Source of the DNA: Adhaeribacter rhizoryzae
GTDB lineage: Bacteria; Bacteroidota; Bacteroidia; Cytophagales; Hymenobacteraceae
Assembly: GCF_008629685.1 (NCBI RefSeq)
Contig: NZ_VWSF01000003.1
Location: 222,795-286,794, forward strand
DNA length: 64,000 nucleotides
Direction of reading: 5' to 3'
Part shown: positions 45,599-60,331 of the stretch, piece by piece
Position numbering within the stretch: position 1 is the first letter of the stretch
Layout of the letters: each line of letters begins with the position of its first letter
Translations under genes and position numbers: made by a program
The notes under the pieces: generated by a model
Seen by the model: the letters and a program-made list of their open reading frames with translations, nothing else
Databases searched by the model: none
Told to the model about the DNA's origin: nothing

Positions 45599-45654
45599 AG
45601 GTAAATTTTTACCGCCCCTGCCCGTCTTAAAACATGAGGGGAGTTTCCAGCAAC
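45599..45654 (-). repeat. Family C interspersed repeat, copy 2, at the 3' end of a gene
   Basis: The reverse complement TTGCTGGAAACTCCCC ... GGGCAGGGGCGGTAAA aligns with 8219-8272. The last eight or nine sense codons (LLETPLMF) and the TAA of the membrane protein gene are read from this repeat. Confidence 0.7.
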
Positions 45655-46316
45655 TTTTTTGCTGTTGTAAAATTAAAATCCTTTAAAAAATAAAAGCCAA
45701 CCACCAGGTACAACATACCCAAATGCGGCTTTAGTACCGTTACGAAGGCCAGCAACAAACCCGATAAGAGCAATAATTTAGTGGAAGGCCGGTTTAAATA
45801 CGAGTAAAAGCAGTAAGCAAAAAATATTAACAAACCAACCGATAAACTATCGGGCAATACAATAATACTATAAAACGAAACTGTCCAACTAAGCAAACAT
45901 AAAAGATAAGTCAGGTAAAACATAGTCCGGCTAGCCATTATCCGGCCGACTAAAAGTGCCAAAACAACAATGCTTATTGCCTCTGTACCAAGTTGCACCA
46001 ACAGCACCATGAAATCGGCGAACGCAACATTTAAAAATTGCCGAAAAAATAGGTATAACAAACTAAAATGCGGTAAGCGCCCGGCGTACACGTTTTCTTT
46101 ACCATTAAAAAAATAATACGTACCGGACTGGATATAATTCTCCATTGCCGCATGGTACGAAAAATAGTCGTGGCCCCGGATTACTAACTCGTCGAGGTGA
46201 TAACCAAGGGGAGCGCAGCTAAGCAGGTACCGCAGAAAAACAGCCGTCAGAAACTTCAGGGTAAATGCCAATAAAAATAAAGCAATCAGTTTTCTTCTAC
46301 CGGGGTAAGGCTTCAT
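45627..46316 (-). pseudogene. Truncated polytopic membrane protein gene, glycosyltransferase-like, ending in a repeat
   Basis: This 229-residue product has about five hydrophobic segments (LIALFLLAFTLKFLTAVFLR, FMVLLVQLGTEAISIVVLAL, VGLLIFFAYCFYSYL, LLLLSGLLLAFVTVLKPHLG). The last block resembles the L...GL..GL...KP....l segment of GT-C/ArnT-like membrane glycosyltransferases, which are usually about twice as long. The reading frame ends inside a family C repeat that supplies the last codons and stop, so the gene appears to have lost its 3' half. A functional short protein cannot be excluded. No remaining 3' part is seen next to it. Confidence 0.55.
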
Positions 46317-47836: not shown

Positions 47837-49186
47837 TTGGGAGTTAGCGATTTACTTCTTGTTCCATTGTACTTGCTACTTATTTACGGCTTAGCTGCCG
47901 GAGTAAGGAAAAGTGTTACGAATAGATTTACGAGAAGATATTTCATGCCCGCCCTTACTGTAAAATTGGTTGGAGCGATAGCATTAGGTATAATTTTTCA
48001 ATTTTATTATGGCCGAGGCTCAATGCCCAGTGGTGACACTGGTAATTATTATAAACAAAGCCGGATAGTAATGCAGGCATTTTACGATTCTCCGGCTACT
48101 GGTATTAAACTGCTTCTTTCTAAGGGCGAATACAATTCAAGCACCGTCAGGTACGCAAGCCGTATGTACTGGTATACATCCTCCACTGAATTCTTTGTAA
48201 TTAAAGTAGCTAGCTTTTTTGGCATAATAGGATTAGGTAGTTATGCCGTTATAGCTTTGTTCTTCGCATTTACCAGTTTTAGCGGTATGTGGTCAATGTA
48301 CCTTACTTTTCTTAAACTATATCCAAATCTACACAAGCAATTAGCTATAGCCATCTTTTTCCTACCTTCGGTTTTTTTCTGGGGCTCAGGCCTGATGAAA
48401 GATTCTATAACCATAGGGGCTTTAGGGTGGTTGTTTTATGGGTTTCATACCTTTGCTATTGAAAAGAAATCATTATTGAAAGCAGCATTTATTATTTTTA
48501 TTTCCGCTTATGTACTATATACAGTGAAAGTATATATTTTATTAGCGTTCCTACCACCTGCCTTGTTCTGGATTTTTATTGAAAACAATCGCAAAATCAG
48601 AAACACTTTACTTCGCAATTTAGCTAAGCCGTTTTTTATTTTAATAGGTTTAGGAGTTGCTTATTTGGGGGCTACTAATCTAACAGAAGGTGATTCAAAA
48701 TATGACATAGATAACATAGGTGAACGCACTAAAATAAATGCTATCTATTTAACTGAACAAGTAGCTACAGGCTCAGCCTATAATATAGGTATATTTGATG
48801 GTAGTTTAAGTAGTATGATTACAGTTGGGCCGCAAGCCATCGTAGTTGCCCTCTACCGACCTTTTCTTTGGGAAGTACGTAATCCGGTAATGCTGCTTTC
48901 GGCTATTGAAGCCACAATCTTTATCTATCTTACTTTAACTTTGTTTTACAAAACAGGTTTCTTTAAAAGCATAAAACTTATTACCTCTACACCTATTTTA
49001 TTATTCAGTATACTATTTTCGATTGTTCTGGCATTTGCGGTGGGCACTAACAGTGGCAATTTCGGGACTTTGGTTCGTTATAAAATTCCCTTGATGCCTT
49101 TTTACTTGTCTGCCTTATATATTATGCGTTATCATTACTTGGTAAAAAGACCTAAGAAATTAGTACGATTAGCAACAACAGCGTAA
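47837..49186 (+). CDS. Polytopic membrane protein, candidate glycan polymerase-like
   Basis: This 449-residue protein has about ten transmembrane segments (for instance LAIAIFFLPSVFFWGSGLMK, VYILLAFLPPALFWIFI, ILLFSILFSIVLAFAVG). The FFLPSVFFWGSGLMKDS block recurs in membrane proteins of Bacteroidota exopolysaccharide loci. A Wzy-like polymerase role is possible from context only. The start is a TTG: an in-frame stop lies upstream and the next ATG would remove the first helix. Its last 52 bp overlap the converging glycosyltransferase gene. Confidence 0.65.
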   Translation: MGVSDLLLVPLYLLLIYGLAAGVRKSVTNRFTRRYFMPALTVKLVGAIALGIIFQFYYGRGSMPSGDTGNYYKQSRIVMQAFYDSPATGIKLLLSKGEYNSSTVRYASRMYWYTSSTEFFVIKVASFFGIIGLGSYAVIALFFAFTSFSGMWSMYLTFLKLYPNLHKQLAIAIFFLPSVFFWGSGLMKDSITIGALGWLFYGFHTFAIEKKSLLKAAFIIFISAYVLYTVKVYILLAFLPPALFWIFIENNRKIRNTLLRNLAKPFFILIGLGVAYLGATNLTEGDSKYDIDNIGERTKINAIYLTEQVATGSAYNIGIFDGSLSSMITVGPQAIVVALYRPFLWEVRNPVMLLSAIEATIFIYLTLTLFYKTGFFKSIKLITSTPILLFSILFSIVLAFAVGTNSGNFGTLVRYKIPLMPFYLSALYIMRYHYLVKRPKKLVRLATTA

Positions 49187-50214
49187 CATTTATCTACTTT
49201 CTCTTTAGCAGCCGTTCCCAATTTTGCTCGTAAAACCGAGTCTACTATTAATTGTTCCAAATGGTAATACCATTCTTCCGGAGAAGAACACACGTAGCCG
49301 TTATTACCGTTTTCTACTACTTCTACATTCATACCAATCGGTGATACTACTGGCGGTATACCCAATGACATGTATTGTAATGCTTTAAAGGCGCACTTCC
49401 CTTTAGCCCAAGGATCATCTTCTAATGGCATTAGGCCCACATTAAACTTAAGCAAGTCTTCAATTTCAGTTTCTTTCTGCCAAGGTTTATAAACTAATGA
49501 TCTTAGATCAAATTCAGGAGGTTTGTTTGAAATCACTAAAAATTCAAAAGCATATTTCTCCTCTAAATTTTGTAAAACCGGTAAAATCATTTCCAGGTAC
49601 TTCAAAGTGGAGTGCGTACCGGTCCAGCCAATTACCACTTTGCTTGTATTTTGTACTTTAAGTTTATTATGATGATTAATGGTATCGATAGTGGTAGGAT
49701 TTACGATAGCATGAGAATTAAACTTACCTGCATAAGCCTGTAAATAGCTATTACCACAACTAACTTTTGTAGCCCATCTACAAATTTGTCCTACCTTCTG
49801 GCTCCAACGAAGTCCGGCTACTAATTTATTGTTAGCAGACGTACTCGGAATCCAAATAGCATCATCAAAATCGTAAATAATTTTTTTCTTCAGTATCCTA
49901 GCCAATATCCACTCTACCCAAGGTGGGCCGACCGGAGTAGCTTCGCGATGAATAAAAATTAAATCAAATTTACTGGCTCGGAAGAGCAATAAGAACCGGT
50001 GCCCGAAACCCTTGATAGTTCCTGTTATTTTTTTAAATGTATGTCCGGGTTTATATAAAATTTCCCATGTTGCATCATCCAGAAATGATGCAACCTGATA
50101 AGAGAAACCAGCCTCCTTCAATATATCAAAATATTGCTCAAACCGAAATCGTTGCGACGGTGCTTTACCTAATGGATACGGTACAACAAAAAGAATATTT
50201 TTTTTTAATTGCAT
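49135..50214 (-). CDS. Glycosyltransferase, GT4-like (GT-B fold)
   Basis: This 359-residue protein opens ILFVVPYPLGKAPSQRFRFE, has FDLIFIHREATPVGPPWVEW and IYDFDDAIWIPS, and continues to VVIGWTGTHSTLKYLEMILP and a C-terminal donor-site region ALQYMSLGIPPVVSPIG. This is the layout of GT-B retaining glycosyltransferases of the GT4 group. Donor and acceptor sugars cannot be told. The gene sits 33 bp downstream of the CotH gene on the same strand. Its 3' end overlaps the 47837 gene by 52 bp, tail to tail. Confidence 0.83.
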   Translation of the reverse strand: MQLKKNILFVVPYPLGKAPSQRFRFEQYFDILKEAGFSYQVASFLDDATWEILYKPGHTFKKITGTIKGFGHRFLLLFRASKFDLIFIHREATPVGPPWVEWILARILKKKIIYDFDDAIWIPSTSANNKLVAGLRWSQKVGQICRWATKVSCGNSYLQAYAGKFNSHAIVNPTTIDTINHHNKLKVQNTSKVVIGWTGTHSTLKYLEMILPVLQNLEEKYAFEFLVISNKPPEFDLRSLVYKPWQKETEIEDLLKFNVGLMPLEDDPWAKGKCAFKALQYMSLGIPPVVSPIGMNVEVVENGNNGYVCSSPEEWYYHLEQLIVDSVLRAKLGTAAKEKVDKCYAVVANRTNFLGLFTK

Positions 50215-50247: not shown

Positions 50248-51990
50248 TTACTGCTGGTAGCGTGCCTTTAAGGCATCTAATTCCTGGCGTTGGTATCTCG
50301 GTCTTGTTTTGGCAAATAATCGTAACACTTCAACTTGTTTCTTCCACTCACCTGCCGAATTAAAAGTTCGCCACCTAGCAATATGCTCCTCCATTTCTGG
50401 AGCAATTTCCTTCTCCATGCTGTTGATTATTTTAATAACTTTATCTGGTTGGAAGGTATTTTCTAAGTGGTACTCAAACCGTTCCAAAAACTTAATTCGA
50501 AAAGCTTTGTTATCTAATAATTTGTTAAATAACTGACCTAGCCCTTTTTTATTTAATAAGTAGTTTAACATATTATATGAAGCTGGCCTTTCAGCTCCAA
50601 AAGCAATATCGGTATCATACAAAGCCCACCGCCACCGACCATCTTTAAACGATTTTTCTTCTTTATTTTTCCCGCTATTGTATCTCCACAAATTAATGTT
50701 GTTATGGGGCCAATCCGGATTTGAACAGTAAACTTCTGCAATTATATAATCAATGAAATTATCCACGTCCATTTCTGACTCTACTACTTTGTAATTCTCC
50801 GGAATAGCCATATTATTTTTTGAAACGAAATTTAAGAGTTTAACAAAAGATGCACTATCGGCTGGTTTTCCATATTCCACAGCCATATTAACTCCCAAAA
50901 TAGATAAGCTATCCAGGGGAATATTATACTTGTGCGAGAAGTAGAATTCATCTACACGCTGACGAATGTCATGTATTCCCCAATATTCGCCGTTAATAAA
51001 TAAAATACTAGGCCTGTAGTTCTGTAAATCTAAAGTAGTATTGCCTTTTAATATTTGCTGCATTAGGGCATCTCGCATCCGCGCCTTATACATATCTTGT
51101 CCGGAGTTTCTTAACAAAAAGGTATTCTGCTGTTGTAAACTTCCGGGACCAAAAAGGGGATAATTCAATAAGGCATCGCCATACTTTTGATTGATATAGA
51201 ATTTTAAAGATTTTTGCGGACGCTCCCGTGTAGCATTGCCATGTATCCGAACACCAGCATTTATTTTAAATCCAAGATTACTTGCACCTTCAAAAAAATC
51301 CAGCACTACTGGCCGCTCCCAACGCTCGCCCCGTCTTTTATAATTAGTAGGAAAGCCTTTTCGGTAATCTTCAATGCTGATGTTATTTTTCAAATAATAA
51401 TCTTTATCATCGGTGGTAGCGCCATTTATATAAATTCCATTCTTATACCCAAATAAATTTTCTTCGTCAGTTACTAACGAAAATACTGGTAAAGAATACC
51501 TACTTCTACCAGTTGGGTGAATAAAGTAACTGGCCACCGTTTCTTGGCTTTTTATTGAATCATTAACAACCGTAATAGCCCGCACTATGCAGCCTTTAAA
51601 AACACGGCTTATCGGATAAAAGAAAACGGGCGAATTCTTAATTTCGGAGAGTTTATTCGGCTCATCAGCCCGCGAGGAGATTTGAATTGGCTCTTGATAT
51701 AAATCCGAATCAATTGTGGGTTTCGTACCATCGGTAGTAAAATAGATTTTAGCTTGCGGATTACTGGAAGTTAAGCTAAGAAAAAAAGAGCTGGTGTAAA
51801 ACCCCGATGGCTGGGATAATTGCGGTTCCGCAATTACATTATTCACAATTAACGCACGTTCTGCCTTAGGCTTCTTTAAGAAAGCATACCCCGAAAGACA
51901 AAAAACAAAAGCAATCAGCAACACTATCACTGCCTGTACTCTAACTTGTTTCTTCTTTCTATTTGAGCTCCTTTCTAGGATTGCTTTCAT
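50248..51990 (-). CDS. CotH kinase family protein with chitobiase/BHB C-terminal-like domain
   Basis: This 580-residue protein has a single N-terminal membrane anchor (about residues 19-37). An immunoglobulin-like chitobiase C-terminal domain follows (FFLSLTSSNPQAKIYFTTDG). Its CotH domain contains FLLRNSGQDMYKARMRDALM, GEYWGIHDIRQRVDEF, VYCSNPDWPHNNINLWR and WRWALYDTDIAFG, which matches the conserved R...N..D and D-T-D kinase residues. Family members phosphorylate secreted proteins (as in Bacillus spore coat assembly). It lies 12 bp after the VTC-domain gene, so the two are clearly co-transcribed. Confidence 0.9.
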   Translation of the reverse strand: MKAILERSSNRKKKQVRVQAVIVLLIAFVFCLSGYAFLKKPKAERALIVNNVIAEPQLSQPSGFYTSSFFLSLTSSNPQAKIYFTTDGTKPTIDSDLYQEPIQISSRADEPNKLSEIKNSPVFFYPISRVFKGCIVRAITVVNDSIKSQETVASYFIHPTGRSRYSLPVFSLVTDEENLFGYKNGIYINGATTDDKDYYLKNNISIEDYRKGFPTNYKRRGERWERPVVLDFFEGASNLGFKINAGVRIHGNATRERPQKSLKFYINQKYGDALLNYPLFGPGSLQQQNTFLLRNSGQDMYKARMRDALMQQILKGNTTLDLQNYRPSILFINGEYWGIHDIRQRVDEFYFSHKYNIPLDSLSILGVNMAVEYGKPADSASFVKLLNFVSKNNMAIPENYKVVESEMDVDNFIDYIIAEVYCSNPDWPHNNINLWRYNSGKNKEEKSFKDGRWRWALYDTDIAFGAERPASYNMLNYLLNKKGLGQLFNKLLDNKAFRIKFLERFEYHLENTFQPDKVIKIINSMEKEIAPEMEEHIARWRTFNSAGEWKKQVEVLRLFAKTRPRYQRQELDALKARYQQ

Positions 51991-52002
51991 AAAGTAAAAT
52001 AA

Positions 52003-52704
52003 TTACAAAAAGAGGCGTTCTAACCCTTGCACATACTTAGAACTCTTGGTTAAAGGAAAAGGGAATAAAGCCGATACTTCTCTGGCTTCCTGATCAGCCC
52101 CGTGGGCATACTTTAACTCCATAATTAGGGTATTACGATCATGAGAATTTTCCAGAAATAATGGATTATGATAACTAATTCGATGGTAATTCATTTTTTG
52201 ATCAATGGTTATTCTGAACTTTCTATCGAATGACAAGTAGTAGTGCCGATGGTATTGGTTTAAAATTGCAGGTTGCAACGAAGCGAGGTCCTTTTTGATC
52301 TGGACCGGCACATCATTACGGTTTAAAGCATCTAAAATAGAATCTTTAGAAAAATTTTTATCTAATACAAAAGGATTTAATTTGTAAGATTTCTTAATGC
52401 CTAACAATCCCTCCTTAATTTTTAATTCCAGAACAGGCTTTTTTATCTCACCAAACAAATTGCCGTACCATCTTATACGCACCTTTAAACGTTGCTGATT
52501 TCCCTCTACATTATCGGCGTAATGCTTAAAGCCAAAAGTATCAAAATAAATGTTGTTTATGGTCCTGGGATGGAAAACAGGCCTAAAGCCTTTGGGATGT
52601 AACTGGCAAGCTAACTTCACTTCAGCAAAAGAAATTCCTTCTATCAAATACTTCCGCTCATATCTAAATTTATCTAAACCCAACTTTTTATTAACCGACT
52701 TCAT
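52003..52704 (-). CDS. VTC-domain (polyphosphate polymerase-like) protein
   Basis: This 233-residue protein has the CYTH-like tunnel fold of VTC domains: KFRYERKYLIEGISF with the ERKY motif, LKVRIRWYGNLF, PVLELKIKEGLLGIKKSY, YYLSFDRKFRITIDQKM and the closing LIMELKYA. Basic and acidic residues of the tunnel (K-x-R-x-R, E-x-K, R, E-L-K) are present. In yeast the VTC4 domain makes polyphosphate from ATP. Bacterial versions beside CotH and DUF4956 have no proven substrate. It overlaps neither neighbour and has 12-bp gaps to both. Confidence 0.88.
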   Translation of the reverse strand: MKSVNKKLGLDKFRYERKYLIEGISFAEVKLACQLHPKGFRPVFHPRTINNIYFDTFGFKHYADNVEGNQQRLKVRIRWYGNLFGEIKKPVLELKIKEGLLGIKKSYKLNPFVLDKNFSKDSILDALNRNDVPVQIKKDLASLQPAILNQYHRHYYLSFDRKFRITIDQKMNYHRISYHNPLFLENSHDRNTLIMELKYAHGADQEAREVSALFPFPLTKSSKYVQGLERLFL

Positions 52705-52716
52705 CTATATAATCAA

Positions 52717-53415
52717 TTAAAAGTCGCGGGTAGTATCAACAAAGGTAAGGTTTAAATGCGGGTACTGGCTTTTTAATGATGAACGGGCTTTTTCCAAGGC
52801 TTGATAATCTTCTACATCCACTACAAACGAAGCTTCTAAAGTATCCTCGGTTTCATCCAACCTTTTTAACTTAACTCCCTGAACACAAGAACGCAGAATT
52901 TGTACAACTTGATTTAAATCTGGCATTTGCCCGTTGTTGTTTGAAATGGTAAAATATAAATTTTGATTATCCAATGGTTTCTGTGAACGGTTTCTAAACC
53001 AGATTACAATCATAAACCCAGCAAAGGCTATAATAGTTAAGATGGTTAAACCCGCACCGCAACCTAAACCAATAGCAATAGTCAAAAACAAATAGGTAAG
53101 TTCTTCCGGCTCTTTGATAGCAGAACGGAAGCGAACAATTGAAAGTGCCCCTACCAATCCTAAGGATAAAGCTAAAGATGTTTTAACTACCGAGATAATG
53201 AACATGGTGGTAAGAGCCAAAATAACAAAGTTCCGGGAAAACACCTTACGATTAGATAATGCATGACCGTATTTGGTATACATTTTACCTAATAAAAAGG
53301 CTAATATAGCACAAACTAAAAAGCTAAAAATAAAATTTGGAATATTTCGATAAGAAAACCCTGCTAAATTATCAATTATTAATCCTCTTACAAATTGGGA
53401 AATATCCATCGTCAT
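52717..53415 (-). CDS. DUF4956 domain membrane protein
   Basis: This 232-residue protein has about four transmembrane segments (IFSFLVCAILAFLLGKMY, FVILALTTMFIISVVKTS, TYLFLTIAIGLGCGAGLTIL, IIAFAGFMIVIWF) followed by a soluble C-terminal region of about 85 residues. SLGLVGALSIVRFRSAIKEP is the DUF4956 signature. The family often occurs beside VTC-domain and CotH genes, as here. Its role is unknown and a membrane partner or transporter is plausible. It is the first gene of the three-gene operon. Confidence 0.9.
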   Translation of the reverse strand: MTMDISQFVRGLIIDNLAGFSYRNIPNFIFSFLVCAILAFLLGKMYTKYGHALSNRKVFSRNFVILALTTMFIISVVKTSLALSLGLVGALSIVRFRSAIKEPEELTYLFLTIAIGLGCGAGLTILTIIAFAGFMIVIWFRNRSQKPLDNQNLYFTISNNNGQMPDLNQVVQILRSCVQGVKLKRLDETEDTLEASFVVDVEDYQALEKARSSLKSQYPHLNLTFVDTTRDF

Positions 53416-53464
53416 TAATTAAATAAAAAAAATGTGGAAAAGATTAGCTAAATATAATTAAATA

Positions 53465-53494
53465 CAAACTTAATCAATTTCAGTTACTAACAAT
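53465..53494 (-). promoter_or_regulatory. Bacteroidota-type promoter of the DUF4956-VTC-CotH operon
   Basis: On the minus strand ATTG (53494-53491), an 18-nt spacer and TAAGTTTG (53472-53465) fit TTTG...TAnnTTTG with one mismatch in the -33 box. The -7 element lies 49 bp upstream of the DUF4956 ATG. Confidence 0.6.
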
Positions 53495-53497
53495 AAA

Positions 53498-54544
53498 CTA
53501 AGGTTTAAACTCCTCGCTAATCCAATCAGCTATTTTTAACTCTTCAAAAAGATTCGTTACTTTTTTATGATGCCTAAATAAGTTCGTTATAAATCCAAAA
53601 TGACTTTCTAAATCGGATCTAACCTGATAGTAATTTTTGCCGAAAAAAGCTAAAGGAAGTTCAAAAAAAATATTTTTGATAATCAAATATAAACCAGTAA
53701 CATAAAGCCAAATAATACCGTGATTAAATCGCTCTTTTTGTTTATTAATTAAAAGTTTGTAAGGCATAAGAAAAGGATAGGTATTGCCAAAACCTTTTTT
53801 CATTTTTTTATAATAAGCCCAACTTAAGCGTCCTTTTGGTAAAAAATGCTGAAATTGCATTCTTTCATCATAATAGATTTTATTCCCGGTTAAAATTAAA
53901 GCGTAACAAAGTTCAACATCTTCTCCAGGATTTAAATTTTTACCTGTTCGACCAGTAAGAATTTTAATAAAGCCTTTTTTTTCAATATCTTTCAATACAG
54001 ATTTCCGAAAAACACCGCCTGCTGTATATATAAACCCCCTAATCTTTGATATTTCACCATGTTTAACAGGACCTTGGCCACCAATGGCATAGGCTGACTT
54101 CAATGATTCAAACCAAACAGGTGGTGTAATTTCACAAATGTCATTAGCGTGTCCTCCTAAAGCACTTATATGTGGATTTGAAATCATTATCTCATAGGCT
54201 AGCTCAACATAATTTTCTGCTAACCAATTATCATCATCGCAAAATAATATAAACTCAAAGTTTGCTTTTTCAATACCCAAATCCCGAGCGGGTCCTGTGC
54301 CTGGTATAGGTTGAGGTATAATAAATAAAGGAGCATTATTTTTATACTTTTCCCATTCATTTCTAGCCACTAAAGCCGTATTATCAGTTGAGGCATTATC
54401 AATCACAAGAATCTCCCATTGGAGATTTGGCTTTGTTATTTTTTGCTTAGCTAAATGCTTTAAAGTTTGTGGTAAACGACTGCTACTATTATAGCAACAA
54501 ATTACAACGGAAATTCCCAAAGGGGATCCTGTATTGGAGGGCAT
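53498..54544 (-). CDS. Glycosyltransferase family 2
   Basis: This 348-residue protein has the GT-A fold: SVVICCYNSSSRLPQTLKHL, WEILVIDNASTDNTALVARN, and the metal-binding cluster FILFCDDDNWL. GGHANDICEITPP and NPGEDVELCYAL follow, matching GT2 residues for acceptor handling. The C-terminal 90 residues are hydrophobic in part (IIWLYVTGLYLIIKNIFF), so it may associate with the membrane. The sequence is more A+T-rich than the housekeeping genes. The donor sugar is unknown. Confidence 0.87.
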   Translation of the reverse strand: MPSNTGSPLGISVVICCYNSSSRLPQTLKHLAKQKITKPNLQWEILVIDNASTDNTALVARNEWEKYKNNAPLFIIPQPIPGTGPARDLGIEKANFEFILFCDDDNWLAENYVELAYEIMISNPHISALGGHANDICEITPPVWFESLKSAYAIGGQGPVKHGEISKIRGFIYTAGGVFRKSVLKDIEKKGFIKILTGRTGKNLNPGEDVELCYALILTGNKIYYDERMQFQHFLPKGRLSWAYYKKMKKGFGNTYPFLMPYKLLINKQKERFNHGIIWLYVTGLYLIIKNIFFELPLAFFGKNYYQVRSDLESHFGFITNLFRHHKKVTNLFEELKIADWISEEFKP

Positions 54545-54711: not shown

Positions 54712-55617
54712 CTATAAATTTCTTTCTTTTTCTTTGATTAACTCGTAAATATACTTTGCTGTTGATTTTTCGTCACAAACATTCTGCCACCATTTCAGTG
54801 TTTCTTTATGCAGGTTTGCTAATTGCTGCGGACTATTTATTAACTCTTTTAAAATTGAATCTATCTCATTCCAATGTTCAACAAAAATCATAGGCGAGTT
54901 TTGGTATGTATGCACATTGGGCATTCTTTCACTGATTATTATACTGCCGGCTTTCATAGATTCGAAATGCCGCATGGTTTCTTTTTGATTTAACCCTGGT
55001 GGACATAATACAATTTTACTTTTGTATATCATTTTATTGTATTCAGTTGAGGAAAGACCAGTATGGAAGCCGTTATTAAACTGAATATGCGAATTCGGGA
55101 ATTTATAACTAAAATTACTCTGTGAACGTTTTTGTAGCCTATATAGAATAGCAAAAGGTAAAAACCTGAGTTTTGTAAAGTAACGGTATAACCTGGCGCG
55201 CCCAAGATGTAAATTGCCTGAAAAAAACACGTTAATACTTCTTCTTTCTATAGGCACAACCGGTTGGCTGTCAAAGTTACGGCTATATCCAACAGGTAAA
55301 TAAAAAAGCTTATTTTTAAATGACTTACAAGGCAAATAATGCCTAAAACCTAAAAAAATTTGATTTAAAATAAAATCATCAGGATACACATCAGATTCAT
55401 CACAAACAAAAAAAACAATTTGCTTTTTTGAACTTGGCTCAATTTCTATTTTCTTTTTGTCGTTATTTAATTTAAAATAAATAATAACTTCATAATCTGT
55501 TAAATTAGAAATTTTAAAAAGCTCATCCAGCACTTTATCAATGTAGCCTAACTCCCTAAAACTTAAAAGTTTTTCTTCTGGAATATTTATTTTAATACGC
55601 TGATCTAACATGCGCAA
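54712..55617 (-). CDS. Exostosin/GT47-like glycosyltransferase, tentative
   Basis: This 301-residue protein lacks strong GT2 or GT4 motifs. The segment SKIVLCPPGLNQKETMRHFE, followed by MKAGSIIISERMPNVHTY, resembles the C-terminal donor-binding part of exostosin-type and spore-maturation (CgeB-like) glycosyltransferases (CPxG....R.fE....G). The N-terminal half is divergent. The gene is very A+T-rich, like the GT2 gene after it, which fits later acquisition. A sugar-transfer role is probable from context, but the family call is weak. Confidence 0.6.
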   Translation of the reverse strand: MRMLDQRIKINIPEEKLLSFRELGYIDKVLDELFKISNLTDYEVIIYFKLNNDKKKIEIEPSSKKQIVFFVCDESDVYPDDFILNQIFLGFRHYLPCKSFKNKLFYLPVGYSRNFDSQPVVPIERRSINVFFSGNLHLGRARLYRYFTKLRFLPFAILYRLQKRSQSNFSYKFPNSHIQFNNGFHTGLSSTEYNKMIYKSKIVLCPPGLNQKETMRHFESMKAGSIIISERMPNVHTYQNSPMIFVEHWNEIDSILKELINSPQQLANLHKETLKWWQNVCDEKSTAKYIYELIKEKERNL

Positions 55618-55752
55618 CTTGATATACTTTTTAATTTATTAAAAACCGGAAACCCTATTAAATTAGTAAAGAATATAACTGAGTGCTATAACTATTATTA
55701 AATTTTATAAAAGACGTAACTGTATGTGCACCTGCTATTTCAATTTAAAATA

Positions 55753-56895
55753 CTAATTTGGCGAAACTATTTCCCGGTACAGTTTCCCCAAGTTTAAATA
55801 GGTATTTTTGGCATTAAACTTTTCACGAACATAACGTCTGCTTTCTTTTGCAAAAGCAAGTTGTTTTTCTCGGTCCTTAGCTAATTGCAGGATAGCACTT
55901 GTCATAGCTTCCACATTCTTATTTGGTACAAGTAAACCAGATTTATCATTTTCAAAAAGCTCGGCTGGTCCTCCACAATCAGTCGCAATTAGCGGTGTTC
56001 CAAAGAATAGGGCATCTAAACAGGTTAAAGAAAATGATTCCGACTCAGAAAAATTTAGAACAATATCTGCTTCTTTAATAGCACCCTCAACATCTTCTAC
56101 AAACTCCCTGAATTTTACAACATTTTTTAAATTTTCTTTTGTTACTTCCTCTATTAATCCATTCTTAAATACCCGGTTTTTTTCCAGTCCCATATCGCCT
56201 CCGGCAAAAGTTAAGTGTAAAGATTTGTCTTTCTCGTAAGCCTTCTTAAAAGCTTCCAAGGCATAATCTTGTCCTTTCCCCTTAATAAAGTTACTTAAAT
56301 ACAATAGCCTGACTGGAGAAGTTTGTTGTATTAATCTTTCTTTTGATGGAAGTACTTCTCTTTCTGGCAGTGGATCATAAATAACTAACGTTTTATCTGA
56401 TTTGGGAAAGAAGGTTTTTACAGCATTAGATACGCAGATAATTTTAGTGGCAAATTGCAAATTTAACTTAGCCCATGTATTTGCCAATGCCGGCATAAAC
56501 TTTTGTGGCAGAAAACGAACATGGGTTATTAATACAACATTGGCACCTAGTATTTTAGCCATTATACCCGTCAAATTATAGAAATCGTTCATATGAATAA
56601 CTTTAGCTTTATGCTGGCGGGCTATTTTTCGCAGCCTAATCCCATTTAGAATTAAAAACGGAAAATACTTAACCAGATTTACGGGATCCTTGCTAATTTC
56701 TATAAAGGGGATTGTTTTATAATTAAGTTGCAGGCTTTGCAAAAAAGGTAATGCCTTACTGTTTTCTGGCAAAACATACAGAAAATTAAATTCTGAAGTT
56801 AATTTTGAGGTGGAGTTGACAATTGCCTTTAAGGCGCCTGTAATGGCTACAGAATTATCTACAATTACTATTGCTGGTTTATGATCCGTTCCCAT
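55753..56895 (-). CDS. Glycosyltransferase family 4
   Basis: This 380-residue GT-B protein has AIVIVDNSVAITGALKAI at the N-terminus and KVIHMNDFYNLTGIMAKILG in the acceptor domain. The donor domain holds RLLYLSNFIKGKGQDYALEA and SESESFSLTCLDALFFGTPL with the E-x7-like donor motif, then TDCGGPAELFENDKSGLLVP. Its start overlaps the end of the upstream GT4 gene by 28 bp, so translation is probably coupled. Confidence 0.88.
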   Translation of the reverse strand: MGTDHKPAIVIVDNSVAITGALKAIVNSTSKLTSEFNFLYVLPENSKALPFLQSLQLNYKTIPFIEISKDPVNLVKYFPFLILNGIRLRKIARQHKAKVIHMNDFYNLTGIMAKILGANVVLITHVRFLPQKFMPALANTWAKLNLQFATKIICVSNAVKTFFPKSDKTLVIYDPLPEREVLPSKERLIQQTSPVRLLYLSNFIKGKGQDYALEAFKKAYEKDKSLHLTFAGGDMGLEKNRVFKNGLIEEVTKENLKNVVKFREFVEDVEGAIKEADIVLNFSESESFSLTCLDALFFGTPLIATDCGGPAELFENDKSGLLVPNKNVEAMTSAILQLAKDREKQLAFAKESRRYVREKFNAKNTYLNLGKLYREIVSPN

Positions 56896-58088
56896 TGGTT
56901 AGTGATTGTCTCCGGGGTAAAATCCGACATACGCATTTCGGCATTTTTAGCGTAAGTTCTTAAGTTTTCATCTTCTAACAAGGCATCTATTGTTGCCGCC
57001 CACATTAGTTTTACCTTATCATTATTTTGGTTTAATAAAGGCATTAAAACACCAAACTTTGTATATTCAGCTTTATCTAAAACAAAATTTGGTTTAGTAC
57101 CAGGAGCCATAATTTCCCGGGGACCAGTTGGACAATCGGTGGTTATTACGGGCGTGCCACAAATCATTGCTTCTGCTAAAGCATTCGGGAATCCTTCCCA
57201 GGAAGAAGAAAAGGCAAATAGTTTAGCTTTTTGAATAAATTTGAATGGGTTGTGCTGATAACCCAGAAAATATACATGGTAATTTGAACTTATTTCCTCC
57301 TGCTGATTCCACCAATAGGCTTTCAAGTTCAACTCTTTCGCTTTTTCCAGCAAAGGCATAATTAAGCCGCCATCTCCAATAATTATTAATTTCACATTTG
57401 TTGTGGCCCTGGTTAAAGCAAATACTTCCAGTAATTGGGTATGAGCCTTCTGTATATGCAAACGGCCAGAATTTATAATAACAGGTCCATTAAAAATATG
57501 TTGGTATACAGCATCTAACGGTTCATTGGCCAGCTGGAGAATTTTTTTAGTTTCATAAAAGTTATAAATGGTTATTATTTTGTTCTTATCCAGATTAAAA
57601 TCTTGTATTAACTCTTGCTTAATTCCTTCACTAACAGCCACAATAGAATCTGCTCTCTTATAAAGGTAAGGCATAAGTACCTTTTTCCGAATCCAGCCGA
57701 TGGTTCCACTTATCTCAGCATCAAAAGTCTTGGAGCCCCGAATACTAATAATAACTTTTTCTTTACCTTTCGTTAAAAGATTTATATAGTCAGCACCTTC
57801 CAGGAAACTGATGCAAACATCAATAGCTAACCTTTTCTTAATTTCTTTTATTTTTTTTACACGGTTATAGAAGCTTGATATTTTGCCAGCAATGGAATCT
57901 GCTCCAAGAATCTCCAGGTCAATTAAGGTACCACCAAAAGGAAATGCAATTCCTTCTAGTTTATTAAAAACTGCTACATATACCTCATGGCTTTTAGCAA
58001 TTTCCAAGCTTAACTTACTCAACGATCGCTCAGCACCACCGGCACCTAAGCCTGGAATCAGAAATAAAACTTTCTTTTTAACCGGCAT
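56868..58088 (-). CDS. Glycosyltransferase family 4
   Basis: This 406-residue protein has the N-terminal KVLFLIPGLGAGGAERSLSK, a hallmark GGAE motif of GT4. VIISIRGSKTFDAEISGTIG and the donor site VIINSGRLHIQKAHTQLLEV follow, then SSWEGFPNALAEAMICGTPV (the E-x7-E motif) and TDCPTGPREIMAPG. It overlaps the epimerase gene upstream by 11 bp and the next GT4 gene downstream by 28 bp, a tightly packed operon. Confidence 0.9.
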   Translation of the reverse strand: MPVKKKVLFLIPGLGAGGAERSLSKLSLEIAKSHEVYVAVFNKLEGIAFPFGGTLIDLEILGADSIAGKISSFYNRVKKIKEIKKRLAIDVCISFLEGADYINLLTKGKEKVIISIRGSKTFDAEISGTIGWIRKKVLMPYLYKRADSIVAVSEGIKQELIQDFNLDKNKIITIYNFYETKKILQLANEPLDAVYQHIFNGPVIINSGRLHIQKAHTQLLEVFALTRATTNVKLIIIGDGGLIMPLLEKAKELNLKAYWWNQQEEISSNYHVYFLGYQHNPFKFIQKAKLFAFSSSWEGFPNALAEAMICGTPVITTDCPTGPREIMAPGTKPNFVLDKAEYTKFGVLMPLLNQNNDKVKLMWAATIDALLEDENLRTYAKNAEMRMSDFTPETITNQWERIINQQ

Positions 58089-59052
58089 TCAAATTATTTT
58101 TATACTGCTGGTTAAACCATTGTGCAAAAGCCTCTAAGCCATCTTTTATTCCTGTTTTAGGATTATAATTTAATAATTCCTGAGCTTTAGAAATATCGGC
58201 ATAAGTAGCTGGTACATCCCCCTCCTGCTCTTCCTGATAAACCAATTTTGCTTTTTTGTTAAAAGCAACTTCTAATTCCTTTATCAAATCTGATAATTTA
58301 ATAGTTTGATGATTGCCCAGATTAATAATTTCGTACAATGATTTGTTATAATCTAAAGCAGATATAACGCCGTTCACAATATCATCTACATAAGTGTAAT
58401 CGCGCCGGGTAGAACCGTCACCGTAAACGGTTATTGGTTCTTCATTAATCAACATTTTAGCAAACTTATGAATTGCCAGGTCTGGCCTTTGCTTTGGACC
58501 GTATACTGTAAAAAAACGCAGTCCTATAAACCTAATACCAAATAGATGACTATAAGTGTGACCCAATAATTCGCATGCCACTTTAGATGCAGCATAAGGA
58601 CTTATTGGTTTTAAACCTTGATCAGCTTCTGACCAAGGCATATTTGGGTTAATACCATATACACTGCTGGAGGAGGCAAAAACAAATTGTTTAATTCCCC
58701 GGCTACGCGCAAATTCTAATAAGTTTTGGGTACCCACATAATTAACAGTTTGGTAAGCTACCGGATCTTTTATACTAGGGCGAACGCCAGCTTTTGCCGC
58801 CAGATGTACAATAACATCAAAATCAGTGTCAAGAGACTGGCTTAACTCCGGAAAATCCAATAAAGAAGCCTCAACTAATTTAAAATTAGGGTTTTGGATA
58901 AGATTAGAAAGATTATTTTCTTTTATAGATCTATCATAAAAAGTATCAAAATTATCAATACAAGTAATTCTGTATTTACTTGTTTCTAATAATTTTTCCG
59001 CGAGATTACTTCCTATAAATCCAGCACCTCCGGTTAAAAGCAAATTCTTCAT
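58078..59052 (-). CDS. NAD-dependent epimerase/dehydratase (UDP-glucuronate 4-epimerase-like)
   Basis: This 324-residue short-chain dehydrogenase has the NAD-binding LLTGGAGFIGSNLAEKL at the N-terminus and the catalytic YAASKVACE (Y-x3-K). FFTVYGPKQRPDLAIHKFAK and YGDGSTRRDYTYVDDIVNGV complete the extended-SDR core. The FDTFYDRSIKENNL segment is typical of UDP-glucuronate 4-epimerases and related enzymes, so it may supply UDP-galacturonate to the cluster. The exact substrate is inferred. Confidence 0.87.
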   Translation of the reverse strand: MKNLLLTGGAGFIGSNLAEKLLETSKYRITCIDNFDTFYDRSIKENNLSNLIQNPNFKLVEASLLDFPELSQSLDTDFDVIVHLAAKAGVRPSIKDPVAYQTVNYVGTQNLLEFARSRGIKQFVFASSSSVYGINPNMPWSEADQGLKPISPYAASKVACELLGHTYSHLFGIRFIGLRFFTVYGPKQRPDLAIHKFAKMLINEEPITVYGDGSTRRDYTYVDDIVNGVISALDYNKSLYEIINLGNHQTIKLSDLIKELEVAFNKKAKLVYQEEQEGDVPATYADISKAQELLNYNPKTGIKDGLEAFAQWFNQQYKNNLNAG

Positions 59053-59075
59053 TAAGTTAAATTTTTTTTGCGGCC

Positions 59076-59083
59076 CAAATATA
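59076..59083 (-). promoter_or_regulatory. Candidate -7 element of the epimerase-GT operon
   Basis: TATATTTG on the minus strand matches TAnnTTTG exactly, 24 bp before the epimerase ATG. No -33 element was placed. Confidence 0.4.
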
Positions 59084-59122
59084 GATAATTAGGCTAGAAG
59101 TTCTTTGTTATTTATGTTTAAA

Positions 59123-60331
59123 CTAGAGGTTTAAAGTTTCTAGTTGGTTCTTCTTCTTATTATACAAATCTACATAACTACTAACACAGTTATCCATATT
59201 AAATTTTTGCGCGGCTAGCAGGGCATTCTTTGCATGTTCCCGGAAAAGAGTTTTATCATTTATATAACGCTGCATTTCATTTTTAAGAAGTTCTGAAGAA
59301 ACTTTGTTGCCATTTAAAGGGACTATATTACCAGCCGCATTACCATTTGGTAATGCAATCATGTTTTTAATTTCTCCAACATCTGATGCAATTACTGGTT
59401 TTCCGCAGAATAAATATTCTATAATTACGGTTGGTAGGTTATCTGAATTGGAAGGAAGCAAACCAACATCAAAGTTGTTTATCCAGTTTATAGGTTCCGA
59501 CGAATAGCCAACAAAATGAATATTTTTATGGTGGCCATTCATTGCTTTCAATGAGTTTAAATAATCACTGTGGCCAACTAAAATCAGATTTGTATTAGGT
59601 TCTGCCAGCTTAATAAATGCCTCTATTGCAACATCCCAACCTTTGCCGGGGATACCCCTCGAAACCATCCCAAAAACAAAATTTTCGGGTGGTATATTAA
59701 TTTTTTGTTTTAGGCCCCTCCCGTTTTGTAATAAAGCCGGGTAAAATGGATATCCATTGTATATTTTAACTAAATTAATTTTTTTACTTACTAGTGGTTG
59801 AATCTTCTCCTGGAAAAAGGCTAATTGATAATCCGAAATACAAACAATTGCATCAGTAATAGCAACGCATTCAGCTATTTTGGTTTTAAAACTAATAATT
59901 GATTTTGGAGGCTCCTCCCAAAAACGCAAATAATCACCGTGAATAGTGGTAACAATTGGAATATTAAGAGAATTGGCTACCTCAGTTGTAACATAATCTA
60001 CTTTAAACTGGTTGCTGTGTACAACTTGTATATTATGCTTCTTTATTATTTTCTTGAGGTGTTTCTTAATAAGTAAATTTCTTAAACTATGTTCTATATT
60101 AATTTTATTAAGCAGAGAATCAAACTTTCGTAAAAACTCATCCAAGGAATGTTTAAAGGTGAGCTTTTTAACATCGGGAGCAAGTTTATTTACAATATCC
60201 TGGTCAATTAAATTATCATAAAATCTATACAAAAAAACTTTGTGGTCTTTGCTCAAGGCTTGCGCAAAACGCAAAGCAAAAGTTTCTGCTCCTCCGGTTA
60301 CTAAAGTTTCTACCGTAATAAGAATATTCAT
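59123..60331 (-). CDS. Glycosyltransferase family 4
   Basis: This 402-residue GT-B enzyme opens NILITVETLVTGGAETFALR and has VVHSNQFKVDYVTTEVANSL, VTTIHGDYLRFWEEP and the donor domain FVFGMVSRGIPGKGWDVAIE. LPSNSDNLPTVIIEYLFCGK is the late donor-binding region, with Asp-Asn in place of the usual first Glu of E-x7-E. Membership in GT4 is clear; the sugar is not. It is the gene before the epimerase in the minus-strand order. Confidence 0.86.
   Translation of the reverse strand: MNILITVETLVTGGAETFALRFAQALSKDHKVFLYRFYDNLIDQDIVNKLAPDVKKLTFKHSLDEFLRKFDSLLNKINIEHSLRNLLIKKHLKKIIKKHNIQVVHSNQFKVDYVTTEVANSLNIPIVTTIHGDYLRFWEEPPKSIISFKTKIAECVAITDAIVCISDYQLAFFQEKIQPLVSKKINLVKIYNGYPFYPALLQNGRGLKQKINIPPENFVFGMVSRGIPGKGWDVAIEAFIKLAEPNTNLILVGHSDYLNSLKAMNGHHKNIHFVGYSSEPINWINNFDVGLLPSNSDNLPTVIIEYLFCGKPVIASDVGEIKNMIALPNGNAAGNIVPLNGNKVSSELLKNEMQRYINDKTLFREHAKNALLAAQKFNMDNCVSSYVDLYNKKKNQLETLNL

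Follow-up and report, generated by a model that had tools for sequence, protein, structure and literature searches.

How a bacterium might phosphorylate molecules outside its cytosol, where adenosine triphosphate (ATP) is normally lacking, is to our knowledge an open question, and it is the question raised by three genes within a 64,000-nucleotide stretch of the Adhaeribacter rhizoryzae genome (contig NZ_VWSF01000003.1, hereafter the window). They encode a DUF4956 membrane protein, a VTC-domain protein and a CotH-type protein, and lie consecutively on the same strand, with each intergenic gap being 12 bp. An earlier note made from the sequence alone had described the three genes with this spacing, as borne out by their coordinates and Pfam matches (Table 1), and had proposed a cell-surface phosphorylation or polyphosphate system, which we likewise infer. 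The trio is a real, conserved, and partly published module found here in a new setting. As a tentative explanation, held with somewhat less than even confidence, we favor one envelope system in which a phosphate polymer would be made, moved outward, and used by CotH in a variable glycan locus. Linkage, hydropathy, the retention of catalytic residues, and the glycan-locus context, from which this explanation starts, can be read from the sequences themselves.

Linkage, spread, and glycan setting

Linkage was evaluated in a scan of named genomes using a DUF4956 alignment, thus being blind to VTC and CotH; from 426 relatives the best 80 loci were kept (L106-L185). The strict count was restricted to loci in which DUF4956 is flanked by 4.5 kb or more in each direction; 41 qualified, and the other 39 were set aside. 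Both VTC and CotH were detected within 8 kb of DUF4956 in 38 of these 41 well-flanked loci, which do not represent 41 independent events (L107-L126 are close relatives, L119 and L176 share a species name, and L064 and L153 stem from the same genome). The exceptions lack VTC (L130), CotH (L180), or both (L177). Irrespective of strand, all three genes occur in 55 of the 80 loci, in the orders DUF4956-VTC-CotH (23), DUF4956-CotH-VTC (21), and CotH-DUF4956-VTC (10), plus one mixed-strand arrangement. With DUF4956 and VTC required on the same strand, 54 loci carry the full trio, nine are without CotH, 12 without VTC, and five without both, many of these at contig ends. The 54 full-trio loci fall under eight phylum-level labels, including Bacteroidota, KSB1, Omnitrophota, Patescibacteria, Planctomycetota, Verrucomicrobia, proteobacterial bins, and a Woesearchaeota bin, the labels being those of the records and the genomes mostly binned. 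Linkage that is kept while the order is shuffled is how a functional set is expected to look. The earlier note had left it to a gene-order search whether the trio is rare and randomly distributed; linkage in 38/41 loci with permuted orders is not random.

A scan of 247 Bacteroidota genomes (kinship among genomes uncorrected) revealed VTC in 43, DUF4956 in 68, and CotH in 96 of them, CotH being counted from per-genome rows. DUF4956 was present in 43/43 VTC genomes versus 25/204 others, and CotH in 42/43 versus 54/204. Hydropathy analysis of L106-L185, leaving out open reading frames (ORFs) that start at the locus edge on the plus strand, indicated a transmembrane (TM) segment within the first 100 residues of 82/83 CotH proteins, none in 57/58 VTC proteins, and three to five in 75/75 DUF4956 proteins. 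This pattern suggests that CotH resides outside the inner membrane and VTC inside.

The glycosyltransferase setting described in the earlier note proved strong for window-like Bacteroidota loci, with 81 of 255 neighbors tagged as glycosyltransferases, and weak in the other DUF4956-selected loci from other phyla and distant Bacteroidota (27/415); the profiles were seeded from the window's own glycosyltransferase genes, so that other families are undercounted. Six of 505 neighbors were tagged where the phylum scan had found VTC-DUF4956 pairs (L064 included), and none of 203 beside VTC-less DUF4956. Since the ORF caller was unreliable in high-GC loci, the count was repeated in six frames with the same outcome, yielding 81 glycosyltransferase ORFs in 392 kb of window-like and 28 in 816 kb of other DUF4956-selected loci, four in 851 kb of phylum-scan VTC loci (without L064), and zero in 269 kb of loci with DUF4956 without VTC. 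Pfam annotation of 69 neighbors sampled from the window-like loci (pool 253) assigned 16 to Glycos_transf_1, 8 to Wzy_C, and 7 to acyltransferases; among 68 sampled from the other DUF4956-selected loci (pool 420), no glycosyltransferase family exceeded 7. The order DUF4956-VTC-CotH1-(~440 aa)-CotH2-(~352 aa)-GT4 (family 4 glycosyltransferase) recurs in 10 of 23 window-like loci, and the ~440-aa protein of L109 and its L064 counterpart were identified by Pfam as Wzy_C. The ~352-aa, secreted-looking protein following CotH2 in 23 loci (e.g., L114:18088-19146) carries GD...GNHD-type motifs and appears phosphoesterase-like by eye, the L114 copy being without a Pfam match at 1e-3.

The three proteins and their predicted roles

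The window VTC protein contains a VTC domain (residues 13-232) as its sole Pfam match and no hydrophobic segment by hydropathy. A profile built from 14 VTC relatives matched yeast Vtc4 (3g3q, E 8.8e-21) ahead of Vtc2 and Vtc3. According to the profile alignment, R76, R78, and E196 are the counterparts of yeast Vtc4 R264, R266, and E426, and together with K18, K95, K104, R153, R164, K198, and K223 they are invariant across 56 VTC sequences. In yeast, changing R264/R266 (and E426) is described to inactivate Vtc4 (available text of PMC9911596 and PMC8749416). The loss of key tunnel residues, named in the earlier note as evidence that would speak against its idea, was not found. An AlphaFold2 (AF2) model (predicted local distance difference test, pLDDT, 93.5) was compared with the PDB by Foldseek, and rows 1-13 were all VTC chains, the best with E 1.1e-11. 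The window VTC is a predicted polyphosphate polymerase that would make polyphosphate from ATP. With the yeast VTC complex (Vtc4/Vtc3/Vtc1), described as a polyphosphate polymerase and translocase (available text of PMC9911596), it shares the VTC/TTM catalytic domain, the R264/R266/E426 equivalents, and the fold. In contrast to the yeast complex, where SPX and TM parts belong to the VTC polypeptide, the window VTC is without either, and the membrane part of the trio is a separate DUF4956 protein.

For the window CotH, Pfam and hydropathy confirmed the membrane-anchored protein with a chitobiase-like domain that the earlier note had recognized: an N-terminal TM segment (20-38) as its single hydrophobic segment, a chitobiase-like domain at 61-106 (CHB_HEX_C_1, 50.5 bits), and the kinase domain at 247-566. 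A profile of 14 diverse CotH proteins matched the Spore coat protein H structure 5jd9 (7.3e-45); the solved structure remained unmatched by a single-sequence search and by a narrow alignment (A6) and was matched once the alignments were more diverse (A9 and A10). In the alignment to 5jd9, D426 and D459 fall on two Asp of the structure that lie 23 residues apart. Because this spacing matches, they are the likely equivalents of D228 and D251 of B. subtilis CotH, mutants of which are described as inactive (available text of PMC7821199). The window CotH keeps both Asp, as do 13 further canonical CotH proteins; hence the loss of CotH catalytic residues, likewise listed as a counterargument in the earlier note, was not observed. 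By analogy, the window CotH would be an active kinase, with its donor and substrate assigned on the same basis. The CotH domain and both catalytic Asp are common to it and Bacillus CotH (5jd9; PMC7821199, as far as described there), but the latter uses ATP and acts on CotB/CotG in coat assembly, whereas the window CotH carries a TM anchor and is predicted to be on the ATP-free side of the membrane.

A second form, designated type-2 CotH (~860 aa), usually takes the CotH place in trios other than those of window-like Bacteroidota; many window-like operons contain it as an additional CotH. Its profile matches 5jd9 at 1.6e-9, a Beta_helix match was found in 16/24 members, and hhalign of type-1 versus type-2 CotH aligned one 51-column motif alone. 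ORFs containing X were excluded from one CotH compilation. In type-2 proteins from several phyla (e.g., L131:10639-13224 and L175:5832-8492), NxDW is mostly replaced by GxxH...NxxFYYNP, and many have a C-terminal beta-helix.

For DUF4956, the four-helix description given in the earlier note agrees with four hydrophobic segments by hydropathy; the AF2 model (mean pLDDT 88.9) instead shows five helices within residues 22-144 and adds a C-terminal ferredoxin/ACT-like domain (148-232) that had been missed. The helical part carries the motif LGLVGALSIVRFRSAIKEPEEL and is MgtC-like in some relatives: 15 of 61 aligned DUF4956 members reach MgtC (PF02308) with E<=0.01, a set to which the window protein does not belong, and NCBIfam MgtC/SapB reaches the window protein at E 0.0054, far below cut-off. 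Fold searches of the model returned ferredoxin/PII-like matches for 148-232 only. No relation to Vtc1 was seen in these searches, which barely probe the membrane part and so do not exclude it.

By analogy with yeast VTC and Bacillus CotH, these assignments can be extended to a polyphosphate product, an orientation, translocation by DUF4956, and an activity, donor, and substrate of CotH. Cytosolic VTC would polymerize the gamma-phosphate of ATP into polyphosphate, and DUF4956 in the inner membrane would dock VTC and pass the growing chain across, as is thought for the yeast membrane subunits. CotH, held by its one-TM anchor with the catalytic domain outside, would take that phosphate directly as donor or via another acceptor. 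Its target may be the surface glycan of the surrounding locus or proteins exported with that glycan.

The window genome contains two PPK1 matches, so that bulk polyphosphate is probably independent of VTC there. Among 20 trio genomes chosen from the 54 (all with VTC by choice), 11 have PPK1 and 9 do not, the latter including ~1-Mb Patescibacteria and Woesearchaeota bins that are perhaps incomplete. From this distribution, some genomes would have VTC in addition to another polyphosphate enzyme, and others may have it as their sole one.

Published relatives, outer partners, and competing explanations

The earlier note saw no described function for this trio in Bacteroidota; that can apply to this phylum at most, since the three genes are known from published Gram-positive Pel loci. 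There, cotH-PPP-DUF4956(-DUF4832) accessory genes adjoin pel (PLoS Pathog 2020, PMC7112168; mBio 2025, PMC12345266; available text), and SIR_1592-1594, which we compared by their published description, place the same three families side by side near polysaccharide genes. As described for this Gram-positive module, CotH is secreted and the SIR_1592 protein combines four TM segments with ACT; the trio loci analyzed here differ in being without PelG, in other phyla, and in three gene orders. In the available text of the Streptococcus intermedius study (PMC7112168/PMC12345266), its authors detected no such synteny outside the Pel locus. PelG, the Pel family that was searched, is missing in the window genome and in all but one of the 20 trio genomes (19 of 20), the exception being the genome of L149, which argues against the module being bound to Pel. 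The 2025 authors also remarked that phosphate may be a common theme (available text of PMC12345266). A further likeness is NELoc-2 of C. perfringens (as annotated in the available text of PMC2879425), which unites two VTC genes, one CotH, and a chitin-synthase-like glycosyltransferase in one locus; its VTC neighbors are annotated there as tubulin/FtsZ GTPases.

Beyond CotH, two genome scans provided 51 VTC loci, of which L064 and L102 are of the window's type. In 46 of them no more than 300 bp separate VTC from DUF4956, and within 6 kb a HlyD-like adaptor was found in 30, DUF2490 in 14, a TolC-type OEP in 4, and CotH in 18, the adaptor and the DUF2490 barrel-family gene never occurring together. 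The HlyD-like adaptor was defined by one local profile; with Pfam HlyD, L103 scores above cut-off, L037 has one of two matches above it, and L044 matches no family. In the 80 DUF4956-selected loci, the adaptor, OEP, and DUF2490 profiles gave no match within 6 kb. Three order-mates show adaptor-VTC-DUF4956-OEP in a row (L103:8436-12321, L104:3366-7272, and L105:7472-11355; Pfam on L103 only), possibly a tripartite envelope-spanning set with VTC as the cytosolic enzyme. That the inner pair stays constant while its outer partners vary is the strongest hint of something being moved outward, and no description of this pattern was found in open-licence PMC papers. An apparent VTC fusion in L052 was rejected as an ORF-caller artefact of high-GC DNA. 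In 11 further loci (L090-L100), which have no VTC, the genes after DUF4956 encode, in turn, a HlyD-like protein (~330 aa), a 410-aa protein, and an SDR (Pfam on L093 only); in L086-L089, a short DUF4956 (185-186 aa) stands beside a 625-631-aa protein, the L087 copy of which has a PPDK_N domain. L102:13031-13957 encodes a 308-aa CYTH-domain protein (Pfam just above cut-off) with a signal-peptide-like start beside DUF4956-VTC, possibly a tunnel-fold protein outside the cytosol.

Several points weigh against the one-envelope-system explanation. Foldseek does not tell active Vtc4 from inactive Vtc2/Vtc3, both being within the top 13 rows; NxDW, the motif holding the Asp228 equivalent, is missing in 48/51 long CotH proteins (by a crude pattern); of the 51 VTC loci, 7 have none of adaptor, OEP, and DUF2490, 33 are without CotH within 6 kb, and 5 without any of them; and the glycosyltransferase link weakens outside window-like loci. 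As reported in the available text of PMC7112168/PMC12345266, deletion of the S. intermedius VTC gene (SIR_1593) came with no reported change, while deletion of the DUF4956 gene raised Pel and that of CotH lowered it, and such opposite-sign phenotypes are not predicted by a simple linear pathway. Moreover, DUF4956 kin resembling MgtC, together with the ACT-like domain, fit a regulator equally well as a channel. In a regulatory module, DUF4956 (MgtC-like TM part plus ACT/PII-like domain) would sense a cytosolic ligand, VTC would bind or turn over a triphosphate signal, both would tune glycan synthesis, and CotH would act separately on a secreted protein. The 15/61 MgtC matches, the C-terminal ferredoxin/PII-like fold, the raised Pel after DUF4956-gene deletion next to the VTC deletion without reported change, and the 25 of 68 DUF4956 genomes without a VTC match in the Bacteroidota scan are in line with it. 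We nevertheless consider it rather unlikely, as the catalytic residues of Vtc4 are retained in VTC and do not vary among 56 sequences, and an adaptor-like, OEP, or DUF2490 neighbor, which a cytosolic regulator would not need, is present in 44/51 VTC loci.

Exported polyphosphate could also be the product in itself, serving as structural anion or metal chelator of a capsule or matrix, with CotH being a matrix-protein kinase that needs no polyphosphate. The rows L103-L105, with no CotH within 6 kb, suggest such kinase-free export; the DUF4956-selected loci, without adaptor, OEP, or DUF2490 within 6 kb and with CotH in all but two of 41, let CotH appear as the functional partner there, and we judge this alternative unlikely. 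A role of CotH chiefly as a scaffold that binds carbohydrate or protein, its kinase activity being dispensable, would suit the chitobiase-like domain and the type-2 proteins, mostly without NxDW and with Beta_helix in 16/24, and is improbable given both catalytic Asp kept in the window CotH and 13 canonical ones. Mere chance neighborhood in a variable glycan island, for which the patchy trio speaks (a VTC relative in 7/241 genomes of the order, five family-mates with the anchor genes and no trio beside them), is already contradicted by the 38/41 linkage in three gene orders and thus highly improbable. The one-envelope-system explanation can be widened to the doubtful but far-reaching proposal that VTC-DUF4956 acts in many prokaryotes as a combined polyphosphate synthase and translocase whose outer partner can be swapped between a HlyD-type adaptor with TolC, an outer-membrane barrel, and CotH. 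Where the partner is CotH, exported polyphosphate would be the energy and phosphoryl source for a kinase beyond the membrane, acting on surface glycans or secreted proteins. If true, a conserved polymerase-like enzyme, combined with a membrane partner and a CotH outside the cytoplasm, would offer a testable answer to how phosphorylation proceeds without ATP, and prokaryotes would have a VTC-like way of exporting polyphosphate that does not involve PPK1. The accessory genes known from Gram-positive Pel loci are, as the spread of the trio shows, one case of a much wider module.

The window locus and its surroundings

Table 1. Trio genes and adjacent features in the window
Feature	Coordinates	Strand	Length	Evidence
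DUF4956 gene	52717..53415	minus	232 aa	Pfam PF16316, 65.3 bits, cut-off 30.6
VTC gene	52003..52704	minus	233 aa	Pfam PF09359, 98.7 bits, profile 1-235 of 235
CotH (type 1) gene	50248..51990	minus	580 aa	Pfam PF08757, 170.8 bits, profile 1-321 of 322
Upstream gap	53416..53497	minus	82 bp	one-mismatch promoter-like site only, 53465-53494
GT4-type glycosyltransferase	49135..50214	minus		Pfam Glycos_transf_1; 33 bp downstream of cotH
GT2 glycosyltransferase (HpsE-like)	53498..54544	minus		Pfam 79 bits; NCBIfam HpsE 157.7 bits, under cut-off 300
Remaining glycan cluster	54712..60331	minus		RXYLT1_C-type, GT4-like, and epimerase genes; Pfam on 54712-55617 and 58078-59052

The gene at 56868-58088 was used as seed of the GT4 profile. 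The Pfam scores of the three trio genes all clear their cut-offs by a wide margin. Whole-genome family searches gave a single match each for VTC, CotH, and DUF4956 in the window genome, and plasmid records contained no match to the window VTC or to one DUF4956 (from L175). The TTTG-N18-TAnnTTTG promoter postulated in the earlier note did not withstand inspection and was rejected as first described: no exact TTTG-N17-20-TAnnTTTG occurs in the upstream gap, and two exact copies in the whole window compare with 2.8 expected. The near-match in the gap, ATTG-N18-TAAGTTTG, is of a kind no commoner than chance, with 11 one-mismatch sites observed across the window versus 16.7 expected.

A relative of the window VTC was found in 7 of 241 genomes of the order, own genome included, by a single-sequence search that misses distant VTC. 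Five of the six matched family genomes (G433 left out), one of them of the same genus, were compared as family-mates. They keep most of the flanking anchor genes, namely an H+-pyrophosphatase-like gene and a peptidase gene (both named from sequence by eye), a TPR gene, a gene for a 449-aa protein, and the downstream GT4, with other genes in the trio's place; the trio is absent from the 20 kb examined around the anchor in each of the five. In Rufibacter immobilis the trio stands at the same place in another gene order, with identities of 80% (DUF4956), 55% (VTC), and 48% (CotH). Because family-mates without the trio keep the anchor and R. immobilis has the trio there in other order, the trio is, judged by gene content, a cassette that can be exchanged, sited on the margin of a variable glycan locus. 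The genome G166, without the trio, has DUF4956 and CotH matches elsewhere, its DUF4956 having been missed by the local DUF4956 profile. Further along the window, a 229-aa PMT_2-like ORF (45627-46316), just below the Pfam cut-off, is without an equivalent at the corresponding position of the family-mate L192 and is perhaps a gene remnant.

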